From Phycisphaerae bacterium (GTDB lineage Bacteria > Planctomycetota > Phycisphaerae > Sedimentisphaerales > Anaerobacaceae), in NCBI GenBank assembly GCA_026386805.1, contig JAPLMX010000189.1, forward strand, positions 53,968 through 117,967: 64,000 nt of DNA, read 5' to 3'. A program made the position numbers and the translations under genes. The notes below the pieces were generated by a model that saw only the letters and a program-made list of their open reading frames with translations, searched no databases and was not told the origin of the DNA. Positions 8,614 to 64,000 of this stretch are shown here, piece after piece (within the stretch, counting starts at the first letter, position 1; each line of letters begins with the position of its first letter).

Positions 8614-10740
<2,127 letters not shown>

Positions 10741-51438: not shown

Positions 51439-51559
51439 CAGGCTGGGCCCGCCCGATTTGAACTTGCGGCTCAGCTTTCTCGCCTGTATCCTCTGAAGCG
51501 GCAATCAGAGTTGGCGACCCCATGCAAGGCATATGCCCACGGGCAAGGTTGCGAGAATG

Positions 51560-53194
51560 GATGAACAGCGGATATTCGTGGGCCGACAGGCGGAATTGGA
51601 TCGATTCCGAGAGATCCTGGAGGACCCGCGCGGACAGGCCGTGGTGGTCGTTGGCCAAGCCGGCATGGGCAAGACTTGGCTGATCGACCGGATGGCCCAA
51701 TTGGCGACGGAGCATCCGAGCCTCAAATGTGCCTGGGTCCGCTACGAAGTGACGCCGACCGACAGCGTCGATTCCACGATGGCGCTGATGATGGACAATG
51801 CCTTCGAGGCCGCCCAGACATGCGAAGGGTCCTTCGACATGACGAACCGCCGCCGAGCGCAGTGGACCGCCATTATCAAGGCCCTCGTCCCTAAAGGCCG
51901 TGAGATGGCAGAACTGATTGCCAGCCTCCGGCATGATCCGCAGAAGAACACGCGGGAGCAGTTTCTCGAACGCCTGCGACTGATTTCGACACGCATGGAG
52001 CCGGACGGCCGGGCCCTCTTTGTGATCGATCCCGAAAAGCTCATGTGCTCTGGCTGTGCCGATTCCTGGCGGCTGGTGACACAAGAGCTTCCGGAGAAAG
52101 TCAAGTTCCTCTTTGCCCAGCGGCCCGAGGATGAGTTGATCAACAGCAACAACTTCATGGCTCTGCAGAACGTCGTGCGTCTCCCGGCCAAGCCGCTTGA
52201 CGATCTCGCCGACAATGAGGTTGATGATCTCGTCCGTCTGCGTGCCAGCGAAGTCGGCCAGCCGGCTTTGACCTTGCAGAAGGCGATGGACAGGTATCAG
52301 GGGCATCCCTACGCCATTCAGGCGGCGATGGGGATCGTCAAGAAGACAAAACGCGTTGAGGACTTGCCGCAAGATCCGACAAACGAGGGAATCGCGGCGA
52401 AGCAGTGGCAACAAGTCTGTCACGCCGCGGAGGCAATCCGCCTGTTCGAAGCCTACGCCATTCTGGAGGTGGCTGTGCCGCATGACATAGTCCAAGCGGT
52501 CAGCGGTCTCGATACACCCACCATGAAGCGATTACTGAGCGACTCGTATCTGCACGGCCTGCTGCGGGAGGAGGGACAGGGCCGGCGGATCTATCACGCG
52601 ATCCTGGCCGACCACATGCGCGGTCAAATCGGTCCCGCCGAGCAACAGGCCCTTCACGCGCGAGCGACCCTCGTGTATCGCACCAGTCTCAAAGAGGCCA
52701 GAGAGCAAGACAAGACGCCCGATGCTGTAGCCGCCGTTCGCTTGCCGGAGCATGTCCTCGCCTCCGAGGGGCCGGACGCGTTCGTAGCGACGTTCGCATA
52801 CGAGTGCACAGCCCCCCTGTTGAGCCTGGGCCTTCTCGACGCGGCCATGAGCCTGTCGCAGCGCTCCCGGAAACTCGTCAAGAAGGGCACACATGAAGAA
52901 GCGGCAATCCTCGGCATTCAGGCGGTGATCTTGAAGGCTCGCGGGGACCTGGACGGGGCGATGGCCCTGCACAAGGACGAGGAGCGAATCTGCCGCCAGT
53001 TGGGCGATGTGGACGGTCTCGCGAGGTCGCTCGCCAATCAGGCGTCAACACTCCACCAGATGGGACGTGCACGCGAGGCTCTGCCGTTGGCCGAACAGGC
53101 TCATCAGCTTGCCACGGAGCATGGCTATGCCGTACTCGTCAGGCAGATCGAGCCAATCCTGAACAAATTGCGCCAGGCAACCCAAGGACCGTGA
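51560..53194 (+). CDS. STAND-type P-loop ATPase with C-terminal TPR repeats
   Basis: FVGRQAELDRFREIL, VVVGQAGMGKTWL Walker A, ALFVIDPEKL, TPR region DGLARSLANQASTLHQMGRAREALPLAEQAHQLA. Confidence 0.82.
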   Translation, partial: DEQRIFVGRQAELDRFREILEDPRGQAVVVVGQAGMGKTWLIDRMAQLATEHPSLKCAWVRYEVTPTDSVDSTMALMMDNAFEAAQTCEGSFDMTNRRRAQWTAIIKALVPKGREMAELIASLRHDPQKNTREQFLERLRLISTRMEPDGRALFVIDPEKLMCSGCADSWRLVTQELPEKVKFLFAQRPEDELINSNNFMALQNVVRLPAKPLDDLADNEVDDLVRLRASEVGQPALTLQKAMDRYQGHPYAIQAAMGIVKKTKRVEDLPQDPTNEGIAAKQWQQVCHAAEAIRLFEAYAILEVAVPHDIVQAVSGLDTPTMKRLLSDSYLHGLLREEGQGRRIYHAILADHMRGQIGPAEQQALHARATLVYRTSLKEAREQDKTPDAVAAVRLPEHVLASEGPDAFVATFAYECTAPLLSLGLLDAAMSLSQRSRKLVKKGTHEEAAILGIQAVILKARGDLDGAMALHKDEERICRQLGDVDGLARSLANQASTLHQMGRAREALPLAEQAHQLATEHGYAVLVRQIEPILNKLRQATQGP

Positions 53195-53265: not shown

Positions 53266-53625
53266 CTACTGACCACCATAGGCCACATTCAGACGAGACG
53301 CGGCGGTCATGAGCGGACGGTCGAGGGTCCACAGGGGGATGCCACTGAGCTTGGCGGAGGCCAAGAGGTGCATGTCGATATAGCCCAGGCCCCGGCCCAT
53401 CAGACGATGGGCTTCGATGAAGGTCAGGACTTCCTCGTGAGTCGCGACCGGGCAGGTGCAGAGGGTTTGGAGCAATTCGAGAATCTCGCGCCGGTTCTTG
53501 AGATTGCCGCAGGCTAACTCGCCGATCACGAACGGGTGACAGACCACCGAGCCGGCGTCGAGCAGTCCGGCCAGTTCGGGCAGGCCGCGACGAAAGTGCT
53601 CGACCCAGACCGAGGTATCGACCAA
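53266..53625 (-). CDS. vapC: VapC-family PIN toxin
   Basis: MVDTSVWVEHFRRG, VIGELACGNL, GYIDMHLLASAKLSGIPLWTLDRPL. Confidence 0.92.
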   Translation of the reverse strand: MVDTSVWVEHFRRGLPELAGLLDAGSVVCHPFVIGELACGNLKNRREILELLQTLCTCPVATHEEVLTFIEAHRLMGRGLGYIDMHLLASAKLSGIPLWTLDRPLMTAASRLNVAYGGQ

Positions 53626-59426: not shown

Positions 59427-60593
59427 TCAGTTCGTCGGATTCATGGTGCGGCCCAGGAACAGGATACTGCCGGAGCGGGCGTCGCGGATCAGGAAGACGA
59501 AGGGGTGATCGGCCCGGAAGACGGGAATCTTGCCCGGTCCCACTGACAGTAGTTTCATCGTGACCCCGGTGGCGGCGGTCGCCTCCGTGCCTTCCTCGTT
59601 CACGTCCACATAGGCCTGGTGGACCACGGCGGAGATGAACAGGTCGCGCCGGCCGGTCATGCCGGAAAAGTCCGCCTCCGAAGAGAAGGCATCCGTCATA
59701 CCCATCGACTTCAGCACGGTCCCCATGTCGAACTTTTGCGTCATCTTGAACCTTGGCACCGCAACAATGACCTCTCGCCTGTGAACTCCACCGAGCCACT
59801 TCGACACGTTCTCGGCCGTAAGCGCCTTCTCAAGCTCGCCGATGCCGGCCGCCTCTTTCGGCAGCAGGATGACCATCGAGAGCTCTTGGCCCACATAGGG
59901 CATTTCCAGCATCTGCAGCGTATCGGTCTCGGCGTAGCCGAACGTTGCCTTCTGGTTCATCATGGGGACCTGGACCTTGCCGCTATTGAGCAGGATAAAC
60001 GGCTCGTCCCGGGTGCGGTCCTTCTTGAACTGCGCGGCCCAGTTGCCCTTGAAGTAGACGGCGTTGGTCAGGACCAGCCGGGTCATGCTGTCGAGCATAC
60101 CCTCGCCGATGAGGTCCTTGATCTTGTCGTTGGTCTGCTTTTGGACCCAGGCGTTGATGGTCTGCCGGGCCTTCTCGGCCGCCTTGACGAAATTGACCCG
60201 CTCCAGGTGGCCGCCGTATTGGTCCTCGACCAGCTTGGCGAACGAGGACAGGAATTCATAGTCCTGCTGGCCCCACAGGGCGTTGGCGATGCGAAGCTCG
60301 TATTTGCCCTGACCGCCACGGGCGTTCAGGTCCTTGACGATCTCGCCGAAAGCCCGCGCGAAGCTCTCCTGTGACAGCGGCTCCTGGGATCCGCCCAGCT
60401 TCTGCACGACCTCTTTCGAGGTCGGCAGGCACAGAGCCTCCGCCATCTGCTCCTGCGTCCGGCCCTTGGCCCCGGCGTACGTCATTGCCAACGCGGTCGA
60501 GATGCTGTACGGCGAAAAGAACAGATTCCCCTGTTGGCTTTGAAGCTTCTGGTAGAGTTGCAGGGCGAAGTAGTTGTTCCCGCACGCCGCCAA
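59427..60593 (-). CDS. Serpin (serine protease inhibitor), apparently lacking its signal peptide
   Basis: NLFFSPYSISTALAMTYAGAKG, TRLVLTNAVYFKGNWA, VDVNEEGTEATAATGV hinge, FRADHPFVFLIRDARSGSILFLGR; TTG start directly after an in-frame TGA. Confidence 0.93.
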   Translation of the reverse strand: MAACGNNYFALQLYQKLQSQQGNLFFSPYSISTALAMTYAGAKGRTQEQMAEALCLPTSKEVVQKLGGSQEPLSQESFARAFGEIVKDLNARGGQGKYELRIANALWGQQDYEFLSSFAKLVEDQYGGHLERVNFVKAAEKARQTINAWVQKQTNDKIKDLIGEGMLDSMTRLVLTNAVYFKGNWAAQFKKDRTRDEPFILLNSGKVQVPMMNQKATFGYAETDTLQMLEMPYVGQELSMVILLPKEAAGIGELEKALTAENVSKWLGGVHRREVIVAVPRFKMTQKFDMGTVLKSMGMTDAFSSEADFSGMTGRRDLFISAVVHQAYVDVNEEGTEATAATGVTMKLLSVGPGKIPVFRADHPFVFLIRDARSGSILFLGRTMNPTN

Positions 60594-61628: not shown

Positions 61629-62231
61629 TCAGATCCGGGTGTCTGACACTCGGCAAGTAAGATCATCCACGATTTCATGCCAGTCCCGGACACGCATGAT
61701 GTTGTCTGCGACGCCACAGTCATTCCACGGATGAGCCAATAAGTAGCTTTGGATGCCTTGCTCGGCAAACTTGCGAGCTTGATCAAGGTCATCTTCAATG
61801 ATGGCCACGCAGGTACGGAATACAATGTGCTTGGTACCATGCTTGACGAAGTGTAAGGCATTGTGTGGAATCTTGTGCCTGTCAAGCCACAGGATAGTAG
61901 GAACCCTTGCCTGCTCCAGGCGTGATGTGACCAAATGAATTTGGTAGTCTGCATCGATCAGTTCACACAGGAATCCCTGTATCTCACAGTACGGCTCGAT
62001 TCTGAGGATATTGGCTTGTTCGGAAAACACCGGGTGAATCGTCGAAGTCCATTCGTCCTTTGTGATTCGGCGTCCCTCAGTATCGACACACTCCCAATAG
62101 TTGAAGTGTTTCACGTCCTCGTATCTCAGATTCACGCCCTCTTTGGAGCGATTCTTGATCACGTCTCGCATGACCTCGTCAGTGCGAGCAACAACGTTAT
62201 CGATATCAACAACAAGATATGTCCCGCCCAT
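61629..62231 (-). CDS. HAD-superfamily 5'-nucleotidase-like protein
   Basis: LVVDIDNVVARTDEVM (DxD), VTSRLEQARVPTILWL, IIEDDLDQARKFAEQG. Confidence 0.75.
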   Translation of the reverse strand: MGGTYLVVDIDNVVARTDEVMRDVIKNRSKEGVNLRYEDVKHFNYWECVDTEGRRITKDEWTSTIHPVFSEQANILRIEPYCEIQGFLCELIDADYQIHLVTSRLEQARVPTILWLDRHKIPHNALHFVKHGTKHIVFRTCVAIIEDDLDQARKFAEQGIQSYLLAHPWNDCGVADNIMRVRDWHEIVDDLTCRVSDTRI

Positions 62232-62245
62232 CGCGCACCTCTAAT

Positions 62246-63328
62246 CTACAAATGGAAAGCCGACGGAATTAGCTCTGCGAGCAGGGCCTGCTCAATCCGC
62301 GTTTCCGTGCAGGCAAGAACCACGAGGTCCTTTCCACCTAATTCGAAAAGGCTCTGACGGCACATGCCGCAGGGGAAACACGGTTCCTCCGTGTGGGTAA
62401 AGACGGCAATTTTGACAGGTTTTGAGTCTCCAGCCACGATCAAGGCACTGATGGCAGCTTCCTCAGCGTGAATCGTGTTGGAGTAGTTGTCAAACTCGAT
62501 ATTGCAGCCCACATAGATGTTGCCGCTTTCTGACAACACCGCTGCTCCAACGCGAAACCCCGAAAGATGTGCTCTCGCCTTCGCAGAGACCATTTTAGCT
62601 CGCTCGGCTAAATGCCTGTCCATATCAGTCGGTGAACCACTGTTCATTTCCTGCTGTCCTTTCCAGAGGCCATCATCTATGTGCGCACGGCGAGAGTAGA
62701 TTATACTGATGGGGATTCGGTAGGACACCACCAAAATCGCTACTGCAGCAAGACAGACGTATTTGTCTGATTCCGGGAAACGCTTGAGCAACCAACATGC
62801 CGCTGTGATGAGACCTGAGAGAACAACGAACACCAGGTTTATAGTACAGGCATGTTTCACCTTCTCTCTCTCGATCTGATCGGACGGCTGATAGACCCGC
62901 ACAAGCTCCCACAAAAAGTAGAGGAGAAACATGCATGTGTAGAAGAAGAGAAGCCAGCACAAATGGCCTCGCCAGTGCATCATGAGCCAGTAAAAAACTA
63001 TCAAGAGGCAGTCGATCGAATATGAGAGGACATTGCTCTCTGCCGGACCTGCTATCGTCCCCTTGTGATAGAACCACCAACTCAAAATGACAGCAATATA
63101 TGCGACAAAGAGGAAGCCAAAATCGATGCACGGGGTCTCTTTATCAATGTGATCCAGTTCCTGAAGACCCAGGCCCAAAACGACGGCGAACATGATAGTA
63201 ACCAGTTCGTGGATTGACTTGTTGAACCGCTTGTTCTTTTCGAGATCGCCAAGGTTCAGATTGCGGCCTCGAATCACACGAGAGAGGATTCGGTTTTCTC
63301 CTGACAAGATCGTCTTGAGCAGATTCAT
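62246..63328 (-). CDS. Polytopic membrane protein with C-terminal cytidine deaminase-like domain
   Basis: about six hydrophobic segments, then VGCNIEFDNYSNTIHAEEAAISAL (HAE) and EEPCFPCGMCRQSLFEL (PCxxC); start at MNLLKTILSGENR with agaagggg SD. Confidence 0.8.
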   Translation of the reverse strand: MNLLKTILSGENRILSRVIRGRNLNLGDLEKNKRFNKSIHELVTIMFAVVLGLGLQELDHIDKETPCIDFGFLFVAYIAVILSWWFYHKGTIAGPAESNVLSYSIDCLLIVFYWLMMHWRGHLCWLLFFYTCMFLLYFLWELVRVYQPSDQIEREKVKHACTINLVFVVLSGLITAACWLLKRFPESDKYVCLAAVAILVVSYRIPISIIYSRRAHIDDGLWKGQQEMNSGSPTDMDRHLAERAKMVSAKARAHLSGFRVGAAVLSESGNIYVGCNIEFDNYSNTIHAEEAAISALIVAGDSKPVKIAVFTHTEEPCFPCGMCRQSLFELGGKDLVVLACTETRIEQALLAELIPSAFHL

Positions 63329-63639: not shown

Positions 63640-63822
63640 TTGGTGCTATCATTGAGCGTGGTACAGGATCTAGTACAGATGGCGAAAATACCAAATCAGC
63701 ACGAGTTGGAGCTTCTGCGGCTTCTCGCCCGCGGAGAGAAAGAAATCGAAGCAGGCAAAGGCCATGATCTCGACACGGTCCTCGCGGAGGCAGATGCCCT
63801 GTTGGAGGAAATGCAACGGTGA
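63640..63822 (+). CDS. Antitoxin-like small protein of a ParDE/RelBE-type module
   Basis: MAKIPNQHELELLRLLARGEKEIEAGKGHDLDTVLAEADALLEEMQR (internal Met); followed by a ParE-like N-terminus. Confidence 0.6.
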   Translation: MVLSLSVVQDLVQMAKIPNQHELELLRLLARGEKEIEAGKGHDLDTVLAEADALLEEMQR

Positions 63823-63869
63823 AAGTCCGTTTCACTCCTTCTGCTCGGACAACGATCCCCATCTACTGA
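63819..63869 (+). pseudogene. ParE/RelE-like toxin truncated after about 11 recognisable codons
   Basis: gtgaaagtccgtttcactccttctgctcgg = (V)KVRFTPSAR, then TTIPIY*. Confidence 0.6.
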
Positions 63870-63943
63870 ATTTCGCATAATATAGTGACAGATTTTTCGC
63901 ATAATATATTGACACCAGCGTTTCGTTCTCGTAGGCTGTCCGC

Positions 63944-64000
63944 ATGGACAGAAAAGGACGAACACGAAGGGACTTCGACGAGTTGGAGAACCGCCGAAAG
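63944..64000 (+). mobile_element. 5' end of a probable transposase gene (IS630-like), running off the window
   Basis: MDRKGRTRRDFDELENRRK...; preceded by imperfect direct repeat tttcgcataatata(g/t)tgacag/c. Confidence 0.45.

Follow-up and report, generated by a model that had tools for sequence, protein, structure and literature searches.

The window (the whole 64,000-nt stretch of DNA analyzed) carries on its reverse strand a small two-gene unit, in which a membrane domain with six predicted transmembrane (TM) helices is fused to a cytidine deaminase (CDA) and followed by an NT5C-type nucleotidase. We tentatively read it from its sequence as an accessory, membrane-tethered unit that would degrade pyrimidine nucleotides. 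In textbooks, cytidine deaminases appear as soluble enzymes of salvage; here, known enzymes form an apparently undescribed membrane-coupled arrangement, a rare architecture in a coherent small operon. The membrane–CDA–NT5C unit was not found in the open-access literature. All CDA copies detected in the lineage are either fused with a membrane protein or encoded beside one in a likely operon, in most cases together with the same nucleotidase. Gating of the enzymes from the membrane, should it occur, would amount to a new mode of control over nucleotide breakdown.

The fused gene (62246–63328, minus strand) is an open reading frame of 360 codons plus stop, with a Shine–Dalgarno-like AAGGGG a few bases 5′ of its ATG. 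The first-pass annotation had noted about six hydrophobic segments in the N-terminal part and suggested TM prediction; the hydropathy calculation yielded exactly six, between residues 38 and 210 (38–56, 68–86, 100–118, 125–143, 163–181, and 192–210). They lie in the membrane domain, residues 1–214 (62687–63328, minus strand), and the CDA domain follows as residues 235–360 plus the stop codon (62246–62626, minus strand). A gene-call artefact, with the CDA normally beginning at MNSGSPTDMDRHL, was ruled out by the conservation of the membrane sequence and by an independent fused homologue in a second genome, which lacks a Met at the junction. The polytopic membrane–CDA fusion is genuine. M228, the Met of MNSGSPTDMDRHL in the window protein, falls in the alignment where the CDA of a split homologue starts, and AAAGGA is found 9 nt upstream of its ATG (62645–62662, minus strand, for the whole element). 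It is therefore possible that an additional, soluble CDA is made by internal initiation at M228.

PF00383 matched the CDA domain (residues ~235–360) with an E-value of 6.6e-17. The NCBIfam cytidine deaminase model NF004064 passed its cut-off of 74 with 103.8 bits, while TIGR01354 scored 99.7 bits, under its own cut-off of 113.65. Both zinc motifs, described as intact in the first-pass annotation, were complete: HAE (62462–62470, minus strand) supplies the zinc ligand H287 and the catalytic E289, and PCGMC (residues 319–323; 62360–62374, minus strand) supplies the ligands C320 and C323. These four residues were invariant in the alignment of the relatives. The zinc site is of the His–Cys–Cys kind; in each of the three close relatives, a Glu comes directly after HAE (HAEE). 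The AlphaFold model of the CDA part had pLDDT values mostly of 75–95, and Foldseek aligned it with tetrameric CDAs at E ~7e-13 (best match 2d30, E 6.7e-13); a profile built on three related CDA domains aligned to the same solved structures. By fold and motifs, the domain belongs with the tetrameric-type cytidine deaminases; its tetramer formation and (deoxy)cytidine activity are predictions.

For the membrane half, AlphaFold placed six long helices over the hydrophobic segments at low confidence (pLDDT mostly 35–78). The sequence of this part was conserved among the window protein and two homologues, one fused and one split, with conserved charged residues inside the helices. Pfam searches and profile comparison gave no match to any known family, transporter families included. 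The six helices and the basic N-terminus suggest that the CDA side probably faces the cytosol. A resemblance to TMEM175, raised by motif positions, was not borne out by sequence: PF06736 had no match in the window genome, and the hhalign score of the membrane domain against TMEM175 was not above those of other membrane proteins, in a test made conservative by a control set that took in loci drawn by the query itself. Foldseek with the membrane model (pTM 0.47) returned MtTMEM175 at ranks 5, 6, 8, and 13 with E >2, as a near full-length but weak alignment (E 2.2, TM-score 0.33). A TMEM175-like fold is thus only a weak lead at the level of the model. Weak matches to the membrane domain in six further genomes (G024, G239, G142, G535, G539, and G388; E 3e-4 to 0.009) were partial and were discarded; the one examined, in G024, belonged to a different protein.

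The nucleotidase gene (61629–62231, minus strand; 200 aa) sits 14 nt from the fused gene, and the two are likely co-transcribed. PF06941 matched its product at 2.4e-8, with 34.5 bits against a gathering score of 24.8. Members of the subfamily range from 24 to 48 bits, with 48.4 bits for the one in genome G437; the member at the split locus did not appear among the PF06941 matches at E ≤ 1 and falls below the Pfam threshold. The HAD catalytic motifs are intact (DxDN, T/S-R, K, and ED), and the members at these loci are 42–57% identical to one another. Because the Pfam match is distant, the substrate is only predicted. A second member of the subfamily was found in the window genome on another contig (C31; locus L025, 1–822), preceded by what appears to be the cut-off C-terminal tail of a two-TM protein of the G437 type (12 of 19 residues identical). 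This tail appears interrupted by an insertion. The G437 two-TM protein, used as a query against the window genome, gave nothing at E ≤ 0.01. Generic NT5C matches in G158, G081, and G352 were considered as further loci and rejected, being divergent and with no CDA seen alongside.

The window genome is a MAG (G000; the window lies on contig C23) of the same family as Planctomycetes bacterium B3_Pla (G474), which holds two relatives of the unit on one contig. One (L019) is a fused protein of 337 aa, 46% identical to residues 31–360 of the window protein. The other (L020) is split into a membrane protein of 245 aa, a CDA of 134 aa, and an NT5C of 205 aa, separated by gaps of about 11–12 nt. Fused and split forms of one membrane–CDA pair therefore both exist. 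The split version is 66% identical to the window protein in the CDA and 49% in the membrane part, the corresponding values for the fused version being 57% and 35%. NT5C is not beside this second fused copy; 3′ of it lie two proteins (9209–9820 and 9868–10692 of the locus) with no Pfam or PADLOC match, the latter DUF3800-like by eye. The locus in G437 (L014) has the order 116-aa protein, canonical-type CDA, 353-aa protein, NT5C. The 116-aa protein gave a sub-threshold Trypco2 match. The sequence of the 353-aa protein predicts two TM helices and, at the C-terminus, a soluble domain; this domain looks GAF-like by eye, with no match in Pfam or among solved structures.

We searched 158–161 genomes of the order. 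The CDA family model had matches in exactly three of them (G000, G437, and G474; four copies in ~158 genomes), and the window protein used as the query led to the same three. The NT5C subfamily was confined to this identical set. The chance that two random sets of three in 158 genomes coincide is 1.6e-6, or about 1e-5 to 1e-4 for 40–80 genomes; as the three genomes come from one family, the co-occurrence is an indication and not a clean test. The evidence base comprises four CDA loci; the three genomes that carry them are related and are all MAGs, two with 6% estimated contamination. As the first-pass annotation had suggested, we looked at the co-occurrence of CDA and TM segments and at the genomic context: at all four loci, the CDA was fused or adjacent to a membrane protein, of two unrelated kinds, and at three of the four NT5C followed. 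The adjacent HAD nucleotidase, proposed earlier as a partner, gained support from this conserved operon (L020 and L014) and from its identical genome distribution in the order. Patterns of the membrane part, run against one genome each of 85,462 species, returned only B3_Pla. None of the loci was seen to lie in a salvage operon, so the homologues examined do not show the scatter over such operons that the first-pass annotation had named as refuting its proposal. Beyond these copies, the sampled order has no CDA, which is thus not part of core salvage there; the membrane–CDA–NT5C unit is accessory.

The upstream context of the fused gene is lost, since the contig ends in a repeat at the window edge. 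This multicopy repeat (63860–64000), with 40 places listed for the MAG and many of them at the ends of contigs, accounts for the contig break and is probably an insertion-sequence end with the start of a transposase. Between the fused gene and the edge (63670–63870), a short ORF resembling a small antitoxin is followed by a truncated toxin-like start that is cut by the repeat, both judged by eye. Elsewhere in the window, we observed a full-length bacterial serpin (59427–60593, minus strand; PF00079, 3.6e-127) and an AAA_16/NACHT-like ATPase with TPR repeats (51533–53194, plus strand) adjoining a PIN-domain protein (53266–53625, minus strand); the ATPase and the PIN-domain protein had weak PADLOC matches only.

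In the mechanism that we propose, NT5C would remove the phosphate from CMP/dCMP, perhaps also from UMP/dUMP/dTMP. The six-TM domain would hold the CDA at the cytosolic face, and the CDA would then deaminate (deoxy)cytidine to (deoxy)uridine, leaving no cytosine nucleoside for simple re-phosphorylation. As the CDA family acts on nucleosides, NT5C and CDA would together form a two-step sink for cytosine nucleotides. Both enzymes are kept while the six-TM domain is swapped for an unrelated two-TM protein. This points to the enzymes as the output and to the membrane part as the input (a sensor, localizer, or gate). Most likely, the membrane part would sense a signal or localize the enzymes, so that breakdown would be confined to particular conditions instead of running as routine salvage. 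The sequence itself shows the fusion, the intact active-site residues, the conserved operon, and the accessory distribution; the substrates, the order of the reactions, the cytosolic side, the gating, and the biological trigger are all inferred.

The first-pass annotation had proposed a signalling or effector role, or an antiviral one by nucleotide depletion. A signalling or effector role may apply, but the specific antiviral claim gained no support. In an antiviral scheme, infection would be sensed by the membrane module, or this module would itself form a pore, and the enzymes would drain cytosine and thymine nucleotides in the manner of AvcD-type deoxycytidylate deaminases and other nucleotide-depleting effectors, as an anti-phage or abortive-infection effector. 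The accessory, patchy distribution of the unit, its interchangeable membrane modules, and the below-threshold Trypco2 match at the G437 locus are consistent with this scheme. There are also precedents: the nucleotide-pool-lowering deaminase AvcID is a known anti-phage effector (PMC10511110), CARF-HAD is a HAD phosphatase effector of the anti-phage kind (PMC12715507), and the Clover dGTPase can be compared (PMC12265719). However, the PADLOC models gave no match for the unit (best E 0.077 for the fused protein, P0001, and 0.012 for P0002) and none that was convincing for the neighbours, and the model of the anti-phage dCTP deaminase (NF041025) scored 19 bits for the window protein against a cut-off of 400. 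No consistent defence island flanked the loci; the neighbours were mostly housekeeping genes. At the window locus a probable insertion sequence lies at the contig end, and the remaining loci are surrounded by ordinary genes. Neither the membrane part nor the nucleotidase had relatives in viral, phage, and plasmid collections searched by pattern and by tblastn, and the plasmid and phage matches of the whole protein covered the CDA part only, at most at about 41% identity. A HEPN match on a Bartonella plasmid (E 0.06) was dismissed as chance, because the annotated HEPN gene is on the other strand. The CDA family, moreover, works on free nucleosides and not on dCTP or dCMP. In the absence of a PADLOC match and a consistent defence neighbourhood, defence stays a possibility and not a finding; a phage-response role is plausible but unsupported, and we regard the effector scheme as rather unlikely. 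A bolder version also seems to us unlikely: a hitherto undescribed conflict module, with interchangeable membrane parts (six-TM, or two-TM plus soluble domain), whose sensor or channel in the membrane would gate the deaminase–nucleotidase tandem directly and so collapse the pyrimidine pool when cells are infected or stressed.

Two further explanations stay closer to metabolism. CDA and nucleotidase are classical salvage enzymes, and the membrane domain is about as large as a small transporter and has charged residues conserved within its helices; it might be a small permease that couples nucleoside uptake to the CDA, with NT5C balancing the pool. Yet the operons hold no other salvage genes, the membrane domain matched no transporter family, and CDA is missing from nearly all relatives. 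The membrane protein of G437, with only two predicted helices and a soluble domain, does not resemble a transporter, which makes a permease role less likely, and we consider the uptake explanation distinctly improbable. Membrane clean-up or detoxification, in which CMP from phospholipid or glycan synthesis is removed or cytosine-nucleoside antibiotics are inactivated, would gain from tethering, as it would put the CDA at the site of CMP release, and blasticidin S deaminases have the same fold as CDA. This is very doubtful, given a CDA in only three of ~158 related genomes, although all of them must make phospholipids, and given that no export or resistance genes were seen beside the loci. A membrane-tethered unit for the conditional breakdown of pyrimidine nucleotides is the reading that we retain.

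Comparison with known systems places each part of the unit. The six helices and ~200 aa of the membrane domain are reminiscent of the TMEM175 potassium channel (PF06736; MtTMEM175 6swr and 6hdc), which carries an FSD motif, whereas the membrane domain has neither this motif nor a PF06736 match. The NT5C 5′(3′)-deoxyribonucleotidase (PF06941; 3bwv) has its HAD motifs in common with the window nucleotidase, the match to 3bwv being weak (E 0.014); unlike this enzyme, the window type is a divergent, CDA-linked subfamily. With the tetrameric CDAs (NF004064/TIGR01354; 2d30, 1jtk, and 1ux1), the window CDA has the fold, the zinc motifs, and the substrate-site residues F258, N276, E278, and F358 in common. 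The zinc site reads CAER in the B. anthracis CDA (2d30) and HAEE in the window CDA; the engineered C53H/R56Q variant of the B. subtilis CDA (1ux1), among the top structural matches, partly resembles the latter. AvcID (PMC10511110) and the dCTP deaminase of NF041025 are, like the window CDA, deaminase-fold enzymes that could lower the cytosine nucleotide pool; AvcD and DCD, however, act on nucleotides and have architectures other than that of the membrane-fused CDA. Of the tetrameric CDAs and the window protein, only the latter is fused to a six-TM domain.
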